Program-made: the position numbers and the translations under genes
Source of the DNA: Bacteroidales bacterium UBA5382
GTDB taxonomy: Bacteria > Bacteroidota > Bacteroidia > Bacteroidales > Dysgonomonadaceae
DNA length: 64,000 bases
Reading direction: 5' to 3'
Assembly: GCA_002409745.1 (NCBI GenBank)
Contig: DHOU01000015.1
Coordinates: 29,506 to 93,505, forward strand
Notes under the pieces: model-generated
What the model saw: only the letters and a program-made list of their open reading frames with translations
Told to the model about the DNA's origin: nothing
Database searches by the model: none
Shown: positions 3,261 through 64,000 of the stretch, piece by piece
Layout: each line of letters starts with the position of its first letter
Position numbering within the stretch: the stretch's first letter is position 1

Positions 3261-4205
3261 TTACATCAGCTTTTTCTTCTTAAAATAGATAAGAATGATG
3301 ACGACCGACACCACCATCAGGATGATAGCAAAAGGGTACCCCCATTTCTCTCCTAACTCAGGCATAAAGCTGAAGTTCATCCCGTAAATGCTGGCAATGA
3401 GTGTGGGCGGCATGAAGATAACCGATACGATAGTGAAAATCTTGATGATATTGTTCTGTTCGATGTTTACATACCCCAAAAACGTATCCTGCAAGTAATC
3501 GAGCCGGTCGAAGCTGAAATTGATGTGTTCGATGAGAGAGTTGATGTCTTTGATAATCATCGATAACTTCGGTTGCAGCTCTTTCGGGATAAAATCGCTT
3601 CGCAACATGCTCGACACGGTGCGTTGCTTGTCGATGACGTTCTCGCGGAGCATCATCGTCTTTTCCTGTAAGTTTTTGATTTCGTTCAGCATGTTTCTAT
3701 CGGCACCCTGCATGTTGAGGCTGTTACTCAAATGGGTGATTTTTTGCGTCATGTTCTCGATCATGTCCGCGTCGAATTCCACCCGGGTTTCCAGGAGCGC
3801 CACCAACACGTCGGCACCGGTGGGATAATTCTTTGGGTTGGCCGATATTTTTTTAACGGTTTCATGGAATGAGATCAATTCCTGACTTCGCACCGTTACC
3901 AGAATATTGTTTTTAAGAATGAAAGATACCGGGTCGCTTTCGAAATTCGATAAAAGGAAGTTTGAATTGATGACCAGCGTATCGTTCGTCTCGATATAGC
4001 GTGACGAAACCTCGATTTCAATCATTTCTTCCTCTTCCTGAATGTAAATTTTGAGAAAGTCTTCGAGTTCGTTTTCAATTTCCTCATCCACATCGTTCAG
4101 GTCGATCCAAAGAAAGCTCCCGATGGGGTTCGATTTCAAAAAATCAAGGCTGCGGCTTAATCTGATAATGCCGTTTTTGTGATAAAAGAGTTTGATTTCC
4201 GCCAT
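3261..4205 (-). CDS. corA: CorA-family magnesium/cobalt channel
   Basis: This inner-membrane channel imports Mg2+ (and Co2+ or Ni2+) as a pentamer. The signature GMN motif sits at residues 275-277 at the end of the first of two C-terminal membrane helices. The second helix (about 291-308) ends in KKKK on the cytoplasmic side. The first 250 residues form the soluble acidic/helical funnel domain. The length of 314 aa is normal. It starts 60 nt downstream of ksgA on the same strand, so read-through from the ksgA promoter is likely. Confidence 0.95.
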   Translation of the reverse strand: MAEIKLFYHKNGIIRLSRSLDFLKSNPIGSFLWIDLNDVDEEIENELEDFLKIYIQEEEEMIEIEVSSRYIETNDTLVINSNFLLSNFESDPVSFILKNNILVTVRSQELISFHETVKKISANPKNYPTGADVLVALLETRVEFDADMIENMTQKITHLSNSLNMQGADRNMLNEIKNLQEKTMMLRENVIDKQRTVSSMLRSDFIPKELQPKLSMIIKDINSLIEHINFSFDRLDYLQDTFLGYVNIEQNNIIKIFTIVSVIFMPPTLIASIYGMNFSFMPELGEKWGYPFAIILMVVSVVIILIYFKKKKLM

Positions 4206-4265
4206 GACGTCGGTTTTTTAATCGTGAATAAATCCGTTTTCTTTCCTGTTTGGCGGCCTTGTTTT

Positions 4266-5039
4266 TTACAAGGCGCTGAGCAGATTGGTCAAATGCTCGA
4301 ATTGTTCTACCGAGAGTTGCTCCGGACGTTTGTCTAGCAAGGGCTCGTCGGGTAAAGAATGTTCTTTAGGAAGCAGCGATTTGATAGAGTTCCGGAGCAT
4401 CTTTCGCCGTTGGTTGAAGCACGTTTTTACCACTCGTTTGAACAGGGTTTCGTCGCAATTCATTTCTTTCCGGTTGTTCCGGACAAGCCTGACCACACCC
4501 GATTTGACTTTCGGCGGAGGGATGAAAGCCTGTTCGTTTACTGTAAAAAGATAATCAATGTCGTACCACGCTTGCGCCAGCACGCTCAGTATTCCGTATG
4601 TTTTGCTTCCCGGAGGGGCTGCCAGGCGTTCGGCAACCTCTTTTTGCAGCATCCCCGAACAGCATATCACAAGCTCTTTATACTCGAGTACTTTAAAAAT
4701 AATTTGCGAGGAAATATGATAGGGATAGTTCCCGATCACACAGAATGGGGAGGAGTACAATTGCGAGAGATCCATTTGCAAGAAGTCGTCGCGAAGGATT
4801 TTCCCGTCCAGCATAGGGAAGTTTTGTTCCAGATAAGTAATCGACTCGGCATCGATGTCGACAACCGTCACATCGCGTTCGGGCCCGACCAGAAAGCGTG
4901 TAAGCATACCCGTGCCGGCCCCCACTTCCAACACAGGAAGGTGGCTGAATCCGTCGAGGGTGGCGGCTATTCGCTGCGCGATACCCTCATCTTTCAGGAA
5001 ATGCTGTCCCAGATTTTTCTTTGGCCTTACCGAGATCAT
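4266..5039 (-). CDS. ksgA: 16S rRNA (adenine-1518/1519-N6)-dimethyltransferase
   Basis: KsgA dimethylates the two adjacent adenines of the helix-45 loop in 16S rRNA during late 30S maturation. The N-terminal NLGQHFL motif, the SAM-binding VLEVGAGTGMLTRFL segment (about 35-49), and the NYPYHIS catalytic motif of N6-adenine methyltransferases are all present. The length of 257 aa is standard. It has its own -7 box at 5075-5082 and leads into corA. Confidence 0.96.
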   Translation of the reverse strand: MISVRPKKNLGQHFLKDEGIAQRIAATLDGFSHLPVLEVGAGTGMLTRFLVGPERDVTVVDIDAESITYLEQNFPMLDGKILRDDFLQMDLSQLYSSPFCVIGNYPYHISSQIIFKVLEYKELVICCSGMLQKEVAERLAAPPGSKTYGILSVLAQAWYDIDYLFTVNEQAFIPPPKVKSGVVRLVRNNRKEMNCDETLFKRVVKTCFNQRRKMLRNSIKSLLPKEHSLPDEPLLDKRPEQLSVEQFEHLTNLLSAL

Positions 5040-5074
5040 TGTTTTTTATCGATTATTCCTTATCTTTACGTCCG

Positions 5075-5082
5075 CAAAGGTA
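5075..5082 (-). promoter_or_regulatory. -7 box (TACCTTTG) for ksgA
   Basis: Read on the minus strand the sequence is TACCTTTG, matching TAnnTTTG, about 36 nt before the ksgA start codon. No TTTG is found at the ideal -33 distance. Confidence 0.5.
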
Positions 5083-5139
5083 ATATTTTATTAAATAAAT
5101 GACGTAATACGTTTTGTAAAAAAACAGAAATACCCGTCA

Positions 5140-5235
5140 CTTCACCGAGAGCGTCACTCCTCTCACCGGGAGAGGCGCTCTTCTTCACCGGGGGGGGCGC
5201 TCTTCTTCACCGGGGGGGGCGCTCCAAACGCTCCC
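5140..5235 (-). repeat. Tandem GC-rich repeat with two G8 runs (dispersed-family locus)
   Basis: Two nearly identical direct units of about 22 bp (CGCTCTTCTTCACC followed by a run of eight G) lie at about 5178-5221. They are preceded by two diverged versions, including a CCTCTC/GAGAGG hairpin at about 5159-5175. Read on the minus strand each unit ends in a form of CGCYCTCGGTGAAG, like the intergenic family seen at 12.6, 37.7, 50.3, 55.6 and 60.5 kb. The homopolymers lie 20-60 nt upstream of the start codon at 5257 and could slip in length. Confidence 0.8.
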
Positions 5236-58189: not shown

Positions 58190-58828
58190 ATGATTCGTAT
58201 AGCCCTGTTTGCGTCGGGAAACGGTAGTAATGCCGAGAATATCGCCCGATATCTTCAAGATAGTCCCGAAATGGAGATTGCGCTTATTCTTTCTAATCGG
58301 AAGAAAGCCTATGTCCATGAGCGTGCGGCTAAGTTGAAAATACCTTCTCGTACCTTTTCGAAAGAAGAATGGATGGACGGAGAGCGTATTTTGGAAATAT
58401 TACGGCAAGACCGTATCGATTTTATTGTGTTGGCCGGATTTCTATTGAAAGTGCCGGCCCGGCTGTTAGCCGCTTATCCTCGCCGGATCATCAATATTCA
58501 TCCGGCGTTACTGCCTAAATACGGAGGAAAAGGGATGTATGGCGACCGGGTTCATCAAGCCGTTGTGGAAGCCGGGGAGAAAGAGTCGGGTATTACGATT
58601 CATTTTGTAAATGAACGGTACGACGAAGGCGCCATTATTTATCAAGCCACTTGTCGCGTGGCTCCGGAAGATTCTCCCGAGCAGGTTGCGGCGCACGTGC
58701 ATGAATTGGAATATATGCATTTTCCGCGTATTGTGAAAGAGGTGGCTCTAAGGGAGACGGGGAGACAGGGAGACAGGGAGACTGAGAGACAAGGAGACCG
58801 GGAGACTGAGAGACGGGGAGAAAAATAA
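58190..58828 (+). CDS. purN: Phosphoribosylglycinamide formyltransferase with octamer-encoded tail
   Basis: PurN transfers a formyl group from 10-formyl-THF in purine synthesis. The N-terminal FASGNGSNAENI, the folate-binding VLAGFLLKVPARLL and NIHPALLPKYGGKGMYG with its catalytic Asn and His, plus GITIHFVNERYDEGAII, are all intact. The enzyme ends near residue 187. The last 25 residues (RETGRQGDRETERQGD, then RETERRGEK) are encoded by an 8-nt repeat array and form an 8-residue repeat, so the tail is probably not functional. Confidence 0.95.
   Translation: MIRIALFASGNGSNAENIARYLQDSPEMEIALILSNRKKAYVHERAAKLKIPSRTFSKEEWMDGERILEILRQDRIDFIVLAGFLLKVPARLLAAYPRRIINIHPALLPKYGGKGMYGDRVHQAVVEAGEKESGITIHFVNERYDEGAIIYQATCRVAPEDSPEQVAAHVHELEYMHFPRIVKEVALRETGRQGDRETERQGDRETERRGEK
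58750..58821 (+). repeat. Octamer array inside the purN 3' end
   Basis: Nine consecutive 8-nt units follow: AGGGAGAC, GGGGAGAC, AGGGAGAC twice, TGAGAGAC, AAGGAGAC, CGGGAGAC, TGAGAGAC and GGGGAGAA. The reading frame stays open because three units make 8 codons. Confidence 0.95.
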
Positions 58829-60570: not shown

Positions 60571-62457
60571 ATGAGCAGGACTATCCTTGAATTTCTGGAC
60601 GAATCGGTAAAGAAGTATGCCGACCGTCCTTATCTATATGAAGCGAAGAGCGGATCGGAATATACCTCGTTGACGTATCGTCAGGTGCAGGAACAATCGA
60701 AACAATTTGCCGCAGGGTTACTTTCTTTGGGCGTGCAGGCGGGCGACCGCATCGCGCTGTTGTCGGAAGGCAAGAACAATTGGGTGATCGGCGAATTGGG
60801 CATCTTGCATGCCGGGGCTATTTGTGTGCCGTTGTCGGTTAAACTGGAGAGCGAACAAGATATCAGCTTCCGCCTGAACCATTCCGAAACCCGTATGGTG
60901 TTGGCATCCGATCAGCAAATCGCCAAGTTGCGGAGAATGAAAAATGCATTTCCTACTGTGGAGCAATATATCCTGCTCGATGAAGAGGACGGGATTGAAA
61001 AGGATGAACTGCTGTTTGATACAGTGATTGAAAAAGGCGTTCAGGCGTTGACGCAAAACCCGTTGTTTCTCGACGAACGAATCCAAGGCGTCACTCCCGA
61101 GTCGCTGGCCAATATTTCGTACACCTCCGGTACGACGGCCAATCCGAAAGGGATTATGCTTACCCACAGTAACTATGTATTCAATGCCGAACAATCGGTC
61201 GATCATATAAAAGGCATTCCGTCCCATTTTCGCACCTTGTTGATTCTGCCCTGGGATCATTCGTTCGGGCATACGGCCGGAATCTATTCGTTTATGAAAT
61301 GCGGAGCCTCGATAGCTTCGGTTGCGATGGGCAAATCGCCGATAGAAGTGCTGCGGAATGTTCCGAAAAGCCTGAAAGCTATCAATCCGCACATGATGAT
61401 GAGTGTGCCGGCGTTGGCCGCGAACTTCCGCAAGAATATCGAAGCCGGCATCGAAAAGAAAGGAAAACGAACCGCCACCTTGTTTCGAAAAGCATTGAAA
61501 CTGGCGTATACCTATAATAAAGAAGGATTCAATAAAGGAACCGGTGCGCGGTTCTGGATGAAACCCCTACTGTCGGTTTACGACCGGTTGATATTTTCGA
61601 AAGTGCGGCAATCGTTTGCAAGCAACATGGCGTATTTCATCGGCGGCGGGGCGTTGCTCGATATCGAATTGCAGCGGTTCTTCTATGCGATCGGCATCCC
61701 CATGTATCAAGGGTACGGATTGTCGGAAGCGACGCCCGTCATTTCGGCCAACAGCGCCCACGCGCACAAACTCGGCTCGTCGGGTAAACCGTTGCCGCGC
61801 ATGGATATTCAGATTGTGGATGAAACGCTGAAAGAAGTGCCGGCGGGCGAAAAGGGCGAAATCATGATCCGTGGCGGAAACGTGATGAAAGGCTATTGGA
61901 AGAATCCCGAAGCAACCGCTGAAACTCTTGTAGACGGATGGCTGCGTACAGGCGATATGGGCTATCTCGATACGGACGGTTATTTATATGTATTAGGGCG
62001 GACAAAATCGTTATTGATCGGCGATGACGGAGAGAAGTTTTCGCCGGAAGGCATCGAAGAGTCGATTATGGCGACGTCGCCTTATATCGAGCAGTGTGTA
62101 CTGTATAATAATCAACGTCCGTATACGACGGCGCTGATCGTGGTGAATCGCGACGAATTGAAAAAGCGTACTTCCGACCCGCAGGAAGCCGCCCGCATTA
62201 TCGAACAAGAGGTCGGTGCCTATCTGAAAGGCGGAAAGCATGACGGATTGTTTCCCTATCGGTGGCTTCCTTCGGCTTTCGCCGTATTGGAAGAGCCTTT
62301 TACGGAGAAAAACGGATTGGTCAACTCTTCGCTGAAGATTGTGAAGCATAAAGTGTATTCGGCTTACGCGGGGCGCATCGAAGGACTGTATACGGCGGAA
62401 GGAAAAAAGGCCGCTTCGGCAAATAATATCGACGTGTTGAAGAAAATACTGGGATAA
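60571..62457 (+). CDS. Long-chain fatty acid-CoA ligase (AMP-binding)
   Basis: The enzyme activates fatty acids as acyl-AMP and then acyl-CoA. The ATP loop is SYTSGTTANPKGIMLTHSNY (about 187-206), the adenylate motif is YQGYGLSEATP, and GWLRTGDMGYLDTDGYLYVLGRTK (about 448-471) includes the conserved Asp and Arg hinge. The length of 628 aa fits FACL-type enzymes. It stands alone between the MATE gene and the radical-SAM gene and is followed directly by a heptamer array. Confidence 0.94.
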   Translation: MSRTILEFLDESVKKYADRPYLYEAKSGSEYTSLTYRQVQEQSKQFAAGLLSLGVQAGDRIALLSEGKNNWVIGELGILHAGAICVPLSVKLESEQDISFRLNHSETRMVLASDQQIAKLRRMKNAFPTVEQYILLDEEDGIEKDELLFDTVIEKGVQALTQNPLFLDERIQGVTPESLANISYTSGTTANPKGIMLTHSNYVFNAEQSVDHIKGIPSHFRTLLILPWDHSFGHTAGIYSFMKCGASIASVAMGKSPIEVLRNVPKSLKAINPHMMMSVPALAANFRKNIEAGIEKKGKRTATLFRKALKLAYTYNKEGFNKGTGARFWMKPLLSVYDRLIFSKVRQSFASNMAYFIGGGALLDIELQRFFYAIGIPMYQGYGLSEATPVISANSAHAHKLGSSGKPLPRMDIQIVDETLKEVPAGEKGEIMIRGGNVMKGYWKNPEATAETLVDGWLRTGDMGYLDTDGYLYVLGRTKSLLIGDDGEKFSPEGIEESIMATSPYIEQCVLYNNQRPYTTALIVVNRDELKKRTSDPQEAARIIEQEVGAYLKGGKHDGLFPYRWLPSAFAVLEEPFTEKNGLVNSSLKIVKHKVYSAYAGRIEGLYTAEGKKAASANNIDVLKKILG

Positions 62458-62458
62458 G

Positions 62459-62528
62459 TTATGAGTTATGAATGATGAGTTATGAGTTATGAGTTATGAG
62501 TTATGAGTGATGAGTGATGAGTGATGAA
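62459..62528. repeat. Heptamer array (TTATGAG/TGATGAG), ten units
   Basis: Ten consecutive 7-mers follow the synthetase stop by one base: TTATGAG, TTATGAA, TGATGAG, then TTATGAG four times, TGATGAG twice and TGATGAA. It fills the convergent gap to the radical-SAM gene. Confidence 0.95.
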
Positions 62529-62536
62529 TGCGGTTA

Positions 62537-63604
62537 TTATTTTCCCATCATTTCGAGATGGCATTGCAGCAAAGCGCCGGTTTTTTCATCACGGAGATGC
62601 AGCCCGTTTCCCTGGCACTGTTTGTAGGCTTTGCACGAAGCGCAGCGGCCGGTTTTCGTCCATGAACGGTCGCGCATGATTTGAAAACGCGTGTTCCAAA
62701 CCGTCCAAAAATCATCTTGATAGATATTTCCCTGGATGTAATCGCTTCGAAGGCTCGGGCAAGCGCTTATATCGCCGTTTGCAAGGACGGAACCGATATG
62801 TATTCCGGCTTGGCAGAAAAAAGGCTGGTCGCGCACTTCCATTTCGTACTCGCCCAAATAACCTTCACATCCGTACGAGGCGTTTATTTCCCCTTCGCGA
62901 CGCGTTTCGCGAATAAAATCCAGCATCCGGACAAATTCTTCCGGCGAAAGTTTCAAAAGGGGATTGTCTTTCGCCCGTCCCTTTGGGAAGACGGTAAATA
63001 ACCGCCAATGCTTCACCCCCAACGAAAGTAAGAGGTTTTTGAGTTGAGGCAACTCATCGATATTCTTTTTGTGGACACACGTCACCACATCATACGTGAG
63101 GTCGGGGGTGGAAGCTACCCGGTAAATGGCATTTACGGCGCGCAGCCACGACCCTTGCTTGACTCGGAACCATTCGTGCGATTCCTCGTTGTAGCCGTCG
63201 AGACTGACGGTTACCGAACGCAACCCGGCGGACAATAGACTGTCCAATCGTTTTTGCGACAAGCCGTATCCGTTCGTTACGAATCCCCACGGATATTCCA
63301 GGTCGTAGATGGCGCGTCCGCACGCTTCGAGGTCTTTGCGGACGAGCGGTTCGCCGCCGGTAATGACAATCATGGTTTTATGCGGATCCACATGCGGGCG
63401 TATATCCGAAAGCACTCTCAGAAAATCCTCCTTCGGCATGTCGGGCACCCACGATTGTTGGGTGCAATCGCTTCCGCAATGCACGCAGTTGAAATTGCAA
63501 CGCAAGGTGCACTCCCAAAACAGATAATTGAGTTGATGAAAGTGTGTTTCGGTTTTTTTATACTCCTGATAGAGCGAAAGAATTGTCTTTTTGCGTAGAT
63601 CCAT
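62537..63604 (-). CDS. Radical SAM/SPASM-like enzyme paired with a lipoprotein
   Basis: The 355-aa enzyme has the canonical CxxxCxxC at Cys36, Cys40 and Cys43 (CNFNCVHC, with an extra Cys32) and the SAM-binding GGEP in VITGGEPLVRKD. The C-terminal third has Cys264, Cys282, Cys321, Cys324, Cys330 and Cys348 in a SPASM/twitch-like pattern for extra Fe-S clusters. Such enzymes usually modify a peptide or protein. Its upstream neighbour is a small putative lipoprotein; I recall a Bacteroidetes pairing of a radical-SAM/SPASM family with a dedicated putative lipoprotein family. The modification is unknown. Confidence 0.9.
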   Translation of the reverse strand: MDLRKKTILSLYQEYKKTETHFHQLNYLFWECTLRCNFNCVHCGSDCTQQSWVPDMPKEDFLRVLSDIRPHVDPHKTMIVITGGEPLVRKDLEACGRAIYDLEYPWGFVTNGYGLSQKRLDSLLSAGLRSVTVSLDGYNEESHEWFRVKQGSWLRAVNAIYRVASTPDLTYDVVTCVHKKNIDELPQLKNLLLSLGVKHWRLFTVFPKGRAKDNPLLKLSPEEFVRMLDFIRETRREGEINASYGCEGYLGEYEMEVRDQPFFCQAGIHIGSVLANGDISACPSLRSDYIQGNIYQDDFWTVWNTRFQIMRDRSWTKTGRCASCKAYKQCQGNGLHLRDEKTGALLQCHLEMMGK

Positions 63605-63656
63605 GCCGCGTAGTGTTAAGGGCGGTTCGTTATTATATAATATATAAGGTGTATCG

Positions 63657-64000
63657 TTATTCGGCGGAAGTTTTTTTGTCGGGCTTTAAAGCGAAGTCGG
63701 CATCGTCTTTTTCAAAAGCGCCATCATACCAATTTCCATCGCCTTTTTTAATTTGAACGACATCTTTCTTCTGGAGAGATACCGAATCGGATACAAGCGA
63801 ACCGTTTTTTGCGCCATCGACGTCATCGACCCGTATTTTCACCGGAAAACCGATGATACCTTTCATGTCGAGCGTGTAGTTGCCCCGGGTATCGGTGTAA
63901 ACGGTGTCTGCCTGGCCGAACTCTTTCCCGATCACCCGGATATCGGGAACCGGCTGATTTGTTTCTTTATTTGTCACCTTGCCATGTGCCTTGAAGTCGG
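63657..64000 (-). CDS. Radical-SAM-associated putative lipoprotein, C-terminal part
   Basis: The gene runs off the right edge; in-frame codons continue upstream of 63977 as DFKAHGK before VTNKETNQPVPDIRV. A carboxypeptidase-regulatory-like or peptidase-associated beta domain (VYTDTRGNYTLDMKG) is followed by SLQKKDVVQIKKGDGNWYDG and an acidic/lysine tail ending KPDKKTSAE. The signal peptide, if any, is outside the window. It lies 52 nt upstream of the radical-SAM gene on the same strand, so it is the likely substrate or partner. No function is known to me. Confidence 0.8.
   Translation of the reverse strand, partial: DFKAHGKVTNKETNQPVPDIRVIGKEFGQADTVYTDTRGNYTLDMKGIIGFPVKIRVDDVDGAKNGSLVSDSVSLQKKDVVQIKKGDGNWYDGAFEKDDADFALKPDKKTSAE

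Follow-up and report, generated by a model that had tools for sequence, protein, structure and literature searches.

A radical SAM/SPASM enzyme of Bacteroidales is paired with lipoproteins that share a short Tyr-Gly(-x-Pro) motif, a candidate site for splicease-like modification

The window analyzed here, a 64,000-nucleotide stretch of a contig from Bacteroidales bacterium UBA5382, carries near its end a gene for a radical SAM enzyme directly preceded, on the same strand, by a gene for a small beta-domain protein. The arrangement raises the question of whether the enzyme modifies its neighbor and, if so, at which site and by what chemistry. An initial annotation of the window had proposed that the neighbor is a dedicated lipoprotein substrate, modified in an undescribed way before or during export, and had regarded the pair as a candidate novel system.

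The enzyme (355 amino acids [aa]; positions 62537 to 63604, minus strand) was assigned to NCBIfam family TIGR04133 in the family search that the annotation had suggested, with 543.1 bits against a cutoff of 425 and residues 3 to 351 covered. It also scored above the Pfam cutoffs for PF04055 Radical_SAM (69.9 bits) and PF13186 SPASM (29.9 bits). With this domain and a CX3CX2C cluster motif, CNFNCVHC at residues 36 to 43 (63476 to 63499, minus strand), followed by Gly44-Ser45 (HCGS), the protein belongs to the radical SAM superfamily. C36, C40, C43, G44, and S45 were invariant in 119/119 TIGR04133-type enzymes and in 7/7 relatives from the TIGR04103/TIGR03913 side; in nine outgroup rows, G44 occurred in none and S45 in two. 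The SPASM auxiliary-cluster region (62561 to 62815, minus strand; from the Cys list and the alignment) contains six cysteines, at residues 264, 282, 321, 324, 330, and 348, which were also invariant in 119/119 enzymes. The radical SAM cluster and the six C-terminal cysteines read by the initial annotation were therefore both confirmed.

SPASM domains with two full auxiliary clusters have a seven-cysteine pattern ending in CX2CX5CX3C..C. TIGR04133 departs from this pattern in having six cysteines only, though PF13186 is above its cutoff: the second Cys of CX3C is absent (CxGNG), and Gly or Ser was found there in the rows inspected. The additional conserved cysteines of the family are C47, C176, and C246, and the Agathobacter enzyme and that of locus L207 have Cys at the C47 and C246 sites. 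C246 lies just before the SPASM region and might stand in for the missing cluster ligand. It begins the stretch C246-E-G-Y-L-G-E-Y-E-M-E-V-R258 (62831 to 62869, minus strand), whose counterpart in the Nostoc, Aureibacter, and Azospirillum relatives is N-[IV]-G-Y-Y-G-P-Y-E-x-x-x-R. Among the 119 TIGR04133-type enzymes, C246 and R258 were present in all, G248 in 114, and E254 in 111; the LGxYE part was not retained in a second enzyme subfamily (CEGWLP..), described below. An AlphaFold2 model of the enzyme (pLDDT 92.8) had as its closest solved folds, among the matches listed, SuiB, SkfB, PqqE, BlsE, DesII, and anSME, with identity of at most 22% in all 50 structural matches listed; the modeled fold resembles that of peptide-modifying SPASM enzymes. 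Identity as an anti-phage viperin was rejected (PADLOC pVip, 61 bits; NCBIfam viperin, 56 bits against a cutoff of 180). Beyond the 3' end of the gene, between it and a convergent gene resembling AMP-binding synthetases by eye, lies a stretch of short tandem repeats of GAGTTAT units (62453 to 62530) that was matched at 16 other places in the genome. A PurN-like gene (formyltransferase, by eye; 58190 to 58828, plus strand) has a repetitive tail, RETGRQGDRETERQGDRETERRGEK, which looks like intergenic repeat read into the gene.

A gap of 52 bases (63605 to 63656, minus strand) separates the enzyme from the partner upstream, of which the window holds only the C-terminal part, a CarboxypepD_reg/transthyretin-like beta-domain assigned to TIGR04134 (63657 to 64000, minus strand; frame open at the window edge). 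In the contig sequence (G000 C3; locus L009, 3163 to 3630, minus strand), the full gene starts at the equivalent of window position 64124 and encodes a 155-aa protein; its lipoprotein signal, ..LIGVLAGC26, has a lipobox that was read by eye. The full-length protein scored 99.9 bits against TIGR04134 ("radical SAM-associated putative lipoprotein"; cutoff 39.8), and its CarboxypepD_reg domain matches fell under their cutoffs. The start codon, the signal peptide, the lipobox Cys26, and a motif discussed below, EYGTP at residues 36 to 40, ten residues past Cys26, are all beyond the window edge, so that the initial annotation had correctly called the protein a lipoprotein without seeing its signal. 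The Asp- and Lys-rich tail to which it had drawn attention is indeed present in the window protein yet was not conserved in the partner alignment, and the tail was for that reason ruled out as the substrate region. For the partner of the nearest relative (L090), a structure model with a mean pLDDT of 87.2 placed the motif (residues 34 to 38) in coil, with the signal helix on one side and the first strand on the other, and a second copy, MYGVP, in a low-confidence C-terminal coil. The beta-domain of the model matched CnaB and transthyretin-like folds weakly, and a search for solved structures of a partner returned a single match, NOMO2 (E 3e-6), with no stretch passing by itself.

The pairing was found to be conserved in Bacteroidales and also in Fibrobacter and spirochaetes, in agreement with the dedicated relationship first proposed. 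Among 149 genomes drawn from the order, TIGR04133 was above its cutoff in 32 and TIGR04134 in 18, and when the two genome lists were compared by eye, 18/18 of the latter were among the TIGR04133 carriers (hypergeometric, 6.7e-15). Because all TIGR04134 genomes also carry TIGR04133, the adjacency in the window is not due to chance. A scan of genome contigs gave at least 585 enzyme relatives, and the best 80 of these were retained; by title they were mostly from Bacteroidales, with others from Fibrobacter, a Spirochaetales MAG, and a MAG labeled Neomarinimicrobiota. The annotated pair was also seen on plasmid records of Parabacteroides distasonis and Treponema saccharophilum. When neighboring open reading frames (ORFs) of at least 80 aa were clustered across the 80 loci, the frequent clusters, a beta-domain cluster (55 loci) and a Fibrobacter cluster (13 loci), both proved to be partner families containing Tyr-Gly (YG), and the next cluster was present at 5 loci.

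The pairing itself, which the initial annotation had regarded as a candidate novel system, is already curated, since both proteins exceed the cutoffs of NCBIfam TIGR04133 and TIGR04134. These are the hypothetical equivalogs rSAM_w_lipo and lipo_with_rSAM, whose records name the pairing and give no function, no site, and no reaction; the JGI name for the partner is "putative lipoprotein (rSAM/lipoprotein system)." The data obtained here extend beyond both records. Unlike the TIGR04134 family, 31/101 nearby partners lacked its beta-domain, and seven related enzymes (L075 to L081; alignment A2), at 333 to 371 bits, scored below the TIGR04133 cutoff and make up the second subfamily. Six of these seven have an upstream CYGxP partner in which the lipobox Cys stands immediately before the motif (AACYGxP), and the seventh enzyme lies at the end of its contig; at L078, the nearest partner has CYAS instead of CYGx, and CYGSP is found in the next gene.

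Comparison of the partners across genomes, proposed at the outset as a way to find a conserved motif, yielded Tyr-Gly-x-Pro (YGxP). The 125 loci compiled contain cases in which one genome was present twice, from two sources, and correspond to 119 distinct enzymes. Two enzyme sets, of 34 and 41 besides that of the window, were hand-chosen from these loci. Under a strict, script-based rule (YGxP in an exported ORF of at most 330 aa, no more than 1.6 kb upstream or 0.8 kb downstream), 107/119 distinct TIGR04133-type enzymes were adjoined by a small exported YGxP ORF, 102 upstream and 5 downstream only. For the remaining 12, the rule found YG only in seven and neither in five. L123 and L140, among the seven, had been scored through other ORFs and by eye have YGxP partners of their own that the rule overlooked. 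The five without a match comprised L173, with EYGSP by eye, three loci at contig ends (L079, L099, and L147), and L021, with an apparent partner fragment. At L132, the upstream YGxP match is an unrelated-looking 295-aa protein, and the likely partner lies downstream. A looser rule, accepting any nearby exported ORF with YG, gave 116/119.

A lipobox ORF was present no more than 700 bases upstream at 114/125 loci, and the nearest such ORF contained YG in 106 and YGxP in 94. YG was the top enriched dipeptide, being found in 100/108 distinct nearest lipobox ORFs against 38.2 expected from shuffling (z 12.8), followed by WY (z 12.1). YGxP occurred in 88/108 of the nearest lipobox ORFs versus 7/88 other lipobox ORFs, taken as controls from the window and the outer flanks (Fisher, 4e-27), and 5 of the 7 YGxP-bearing controls were by eye further family members. 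Where the contig had no enzyme gene beside the partner (L086 to L089), YG was present in 6/6 partners and YGxP in 5/6. A profile search of 5.8 billion proteins returned 180 homologs, with one to four copies of YGxP in 120/120 among the matches listed, a count biased in that direction by seed rows preselected for YGxP; the invariance of the motif columns in alignment A4 is likewise by selection of its rows. In the loose set, the residue at position −1 was variable, mostly E, L, K, M, or C (224/354 sites), and Pro at +3 (172/353 sites) was the only common extra residue besides Gly.

The partners carrying this motif appear unrelated to one another. Besides the beta-domain lipoproteins, they include short lipoproteins of ∼45 to 140 aa, frequently encoded in tandem (L085 has six consecutive YG genes), and helical, coiled-coil-like lipoproteins in which [VL]YG[STP]PE occurs once or twice. 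In many partners, the lipobox Cys is itself the Xaa of Xaa-Tyr-Gly (ACYGTP). Of 101 distinct nearby partners, the 70 with the beta-domain had YG in 67 and YGxP in 65, and the 31 without it had YG in 28 and YGxP in 20. In the latter, shuffling predicted YG in only 6.1, and the number of YG copies was 57, against a mean of 7.0 and never more than 13 when the sequences were shuffled 300 times; the next enriched dipeptide was GV, in part overlapping YGV. With YG in 28/31 partners that have no beta-domain, the motif is not a mere part of that domain. Near the export signal, Gly-[Phe/Ile/Leu] was found shortly before the lipobox Cys in 58/95 partners versus 10/88 controls.

At the Fibrobacter loci (L100 to L142), Ser-rich lipoproteins with several copies of YG occurred in clusters, several partners per enzyme, and the signal peptides of these partners were strongly alike (KHWKK..FFWASC). 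At L026/L121, L085, and L117, YG proteins have a signal peptide and no lipobox (IIAQYGAP, VAAQYGAP, and VAAQYGVP); because some YG partners are of this kind, the system can perhaps do without lipidation. At 29/119 loci, the enzyme had at least two YGxP partner genes, and four genomes had additional partners on other contigs; several lipoproteins thus probably depend on the same enzyme. As judged from their sequences, the partners have little in common except an export signal and at least one Xaa-Tyr-Gly(-x-Pro) motif, and what is new here is this single short Tyr-Gly(-x-Pro) motif common to otherwise apparently unrelated proteins. Because unrelated partners have one short motif in common, the role of the partner as the substrate of the enzyme, as first proposed, is strongly favored.

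The kinship of the enzyme bears on the chemistry. The window enzyme scored 128 bits with TIGR04053, 123 with AhbD, 113.1 with TIGR04103, and 112 with NirJ2. TIGR04103, which we take to be the family of the splicease PlpX itself (IPR026482), has a cutoff of 725, and the window enzyme is not a member. In 35 enzyme members, the best E values for AhbD and TIGR04103 were nearly equal, and TIGR04103 came only tenth among the HMMs when the first member of the second subfamily was scored. By themselves, therefore, the HMM scores do not point to PlpX. Trees were more informative. In a 48-row tree, TIGR04133 grouped with TIGR04103, TIGR03913, Aureibacter, Tropicibacter, Agathobacter, L082, L083, and L207 at 92/87, with long branches. 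In a 33-row unrooted tree, the same group without L082 was split from NirJ2/AhbD-like, TIGR04053, TIGR04347, and MftC-like enzymes by a branch of 100/99, a rival clade of TIGR04133 with the heme/TIGR04053 group had a p-AU of 0.039, and the exact sister of TIGR04133 was placed by a branch of only 56/52. A heme/AhbD-like placement was thus favored by neither tree, and on this phylogenetic evidence TIGR04133 is nearer to TIGR04103 than to the heme, TIGR04053, or MftC enzymes. The residues common with these relatives and present in at most 2/9 outgroup rows were G44, S45, W200, A211, G248, and E254. For the clade members L083 and L207, no convincing YG peptide was found nearby, which counts against a simple Tyr-Gly rule for the whole clade.

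A search of the genome contigs for PlpA by a back-translated tag pattern gave no match, and a relative on a Nostoc plasmid was therefore used instead. Its enzyme, annotated "nif11-class peptide radical SAM maturase 3," scored 853 bits with TIGR04103, and the gene lies directly after that of a precursor ending GSIALYGLPPELF (ALYGLPPELF, with LYGLP); a 71-aa ORF after it may be the PlpY counterpart. The window enzyme is 27% identical to the Nostoc enzyme and, like the rest of TIGR04133, lacks one SPASM Cys that the latter has. TIGR03913 maturases (Azospirillum; Aureibacter just below the cutoff) fall on the same side of the tree and have enzyme residues in common with TIGR04133. Their peptide genes are also directly upstream, with Tyr near the start in 11/11. 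These DUF1843 peptides differ from the TIGR04133 partners in being small and without a signal peptide; by eye, Tyr occupied one site in 11/11, and the next residue was Gly in 6 peptides, Met in 3, and Ala in 2, so that Tyr-Gly was at the aligned site in 6/11 only (9/11 if YG anywhere in the peptide is counted). This suggests, from the peptide sequences, that the TIGR03913 family too may act on Tyr-Gly-like sites. DUF1843 "GDL motif" peptides with Tyr near the N terminus were noted beside TIGR03913-type enzymes at L174, L176, L209, and L210. On an Agathobacter rectalis plasmid (L172), a 68-aa ORF (3716 to 3922, plus strand) ending FGPVMYGTGVRM (VMYGTGVRM) precedes by 81 bases an enzyme gene (4004 to 5158, plus strand) whose product gave 235 bits with TIGR04103, below the cutoff; the two are possibly an unannotated splicease-type pair in a Firmicute.

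PlpX of Pleurocapsa, a radical SAM/SPASM enzyme acting at Xaa-Tyr-Gly (Morinaka et al. 2018, as described in PMC11002830 and PMC10533398), is described as working with the RRE partner PlpY to excise tyramine and rejoin the backbone and is listed under IPR026482 (PMC11002830). MYG and LYG occur as natural splice sites, and a tag that has been tried, GGPIRPLYGLPI, contains LYGLP (PMC10533398). One natural site likewise has x-Pro after Tyr-Gly (LYGLP), as in the YGxP partners here. Several splice sites per substrate are possible (PMC10373908). The window partner, with EYGTP, has the Xaa-Tyr-Gly of PlpX-type substrates, its own status as a substrate being the favored reading. PlpX differs in that its substrates have nif11/NHLP leader peptides, whereas the TIGR04133 partners are mostly lipoproteins with signal peptides, and in its use of PlpY, no equivalent of which was found beside TIGR04133. 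No PlpY/RRE-like third gene recurred among ORFs of at least 80 aa in the 80 loci, and among 450 small YG-less ORFs at the 119 loci, no cluster spanned as many as 3 loci.

The literature searched contained no account of a modification in this enzyme-lipoprotein pair; the splicease survey of Scott et al. (2022) lay outside that literature. That survey may preempt part of the finding, since a review credits it with a broad spread of the reaction across bacteria (PMC10373908). Within the literature searched, the initial annotation's view of the modification as undescribed holds for the pair; because motif and enzyme clade point to PlpX-type chemistry, the modification would not be quite unprecedented.

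On balance, TIGR04133 rather probably acts at the Tyr-Gly of lipoproteins before their export, in a reaction that we infer to be splicease-like. In the proposed mechanism, the enzyme would be a cytoplasmic radical SAM/SPASM protein that binds the lipoprotein precursor, its substrate, ahead of Sec export. Because no RRE-like gene was found beside the enzyme, recognition would proceed without an RRE, perhaps partly through the conserved signal peptide. A radical would form at or beside the Tyr of Xaa-Tyr-Gly, which in the window partner would be Tyr37 of Glu36-Tyr37-Gly38-Thr39-Pro40, and the lipoprotein would afterwards be exported and lipidated, carrying a reactive ketoamide close to the anchor. 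A role on the surface, such as the covalent capture or inhibition of proteases, is a further and weaker step; it would be sensible in that spliceotides are described as protease inhibitors (PMC10373908, PMC11117315).

The strongest alternative, though an unlikely one, is another radical reaction at the Tyr or Gly of the motif that leaves the backbone intact, such as C-beta oxidation, cross-linking, epimerization, or desaturation. The motif evidence fixes the site rather than the chemistry, and the missing auxiliary-cluster Cys, the extra conserved Cys at 47, 176, and 246, the lack of a recurring RRE-like partner, and the relatives that keep Tyr while Gly varies would all be compatible with a different outcome. 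The near-constant Gly after Tyr with a free preceding residue, however, fits XYG splicing, the tree places the enzyme with the PlpX-type side, and a cross-link needs a conserved second residue, for which only Pro at +3 is at all common besides Gly. It is quite improbable that Xaa-Tyr-Gly-x-Pro is instead a docking or structural element and that the enzyme modifies another part of the lipoprotein. The motif does stand right before the first strand in beta-domain partners and is repeated ahead of each domain in a double-domain homolog (P0001), but it was kept by the 28/31 nearby partners without that domain, in some of them in multiple copies, and no second motif was seen across the different partner types. 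Least probable is action on a small molecule, with the lipoprotein unmodified and the pair merely coregulated: heme and cofactor enzymes are among the HMM relatives at similar scores, but the 18/18 genome co-occurrence, the predominance of YG partner families among the neighbors (55 plus 13 of 80 loci, against 5 for the next), and the peptide-modifying SPASM enzymes among the best structural matches argue against it.

Splicease-like action at Tyr-Gly, if real, would turn an anonymous curated pair into a testable prediction, namely, a loss of ∼135.07 Da at one named Tyr-Gly, and would make the short YGxP sequences of unrelated proteins candidate splice tags. By formula, C8H9NO amounts to 135.068, and the figure in PMC10533398 is 135.0757. 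Since Tyr-Gly is the kind of site cut by the related enzyme, these surface proteins may be spliced likewise. The chances appear about even that Bacteroidota, Fibrobacter, and some spirochaetes excise tyramine from surface lipoproteins, so that proteins made on the ribosome and anchored by lipid would bear alpha-keto-beta-amino residues, with the lipidated Cys as the beta-amino residue in Cys-Tyr-Gly partners and with the motif serving as a splicing tag rather than as part of a RiPP pathway. If this is true, Cys-Tyr-Gly partners would have a membrane anchor and a reactive ketoamide on the same residue, and a family of unrelated lipoproteins would rely on one enzyme. Radical backbone splicing would then be a routine lipoprotein modification in gut and rumen bacteria, beyond small peptide products, which would place reactive carbonyl groups on the cell surface and make protease capture or inhibition there worth looking at.
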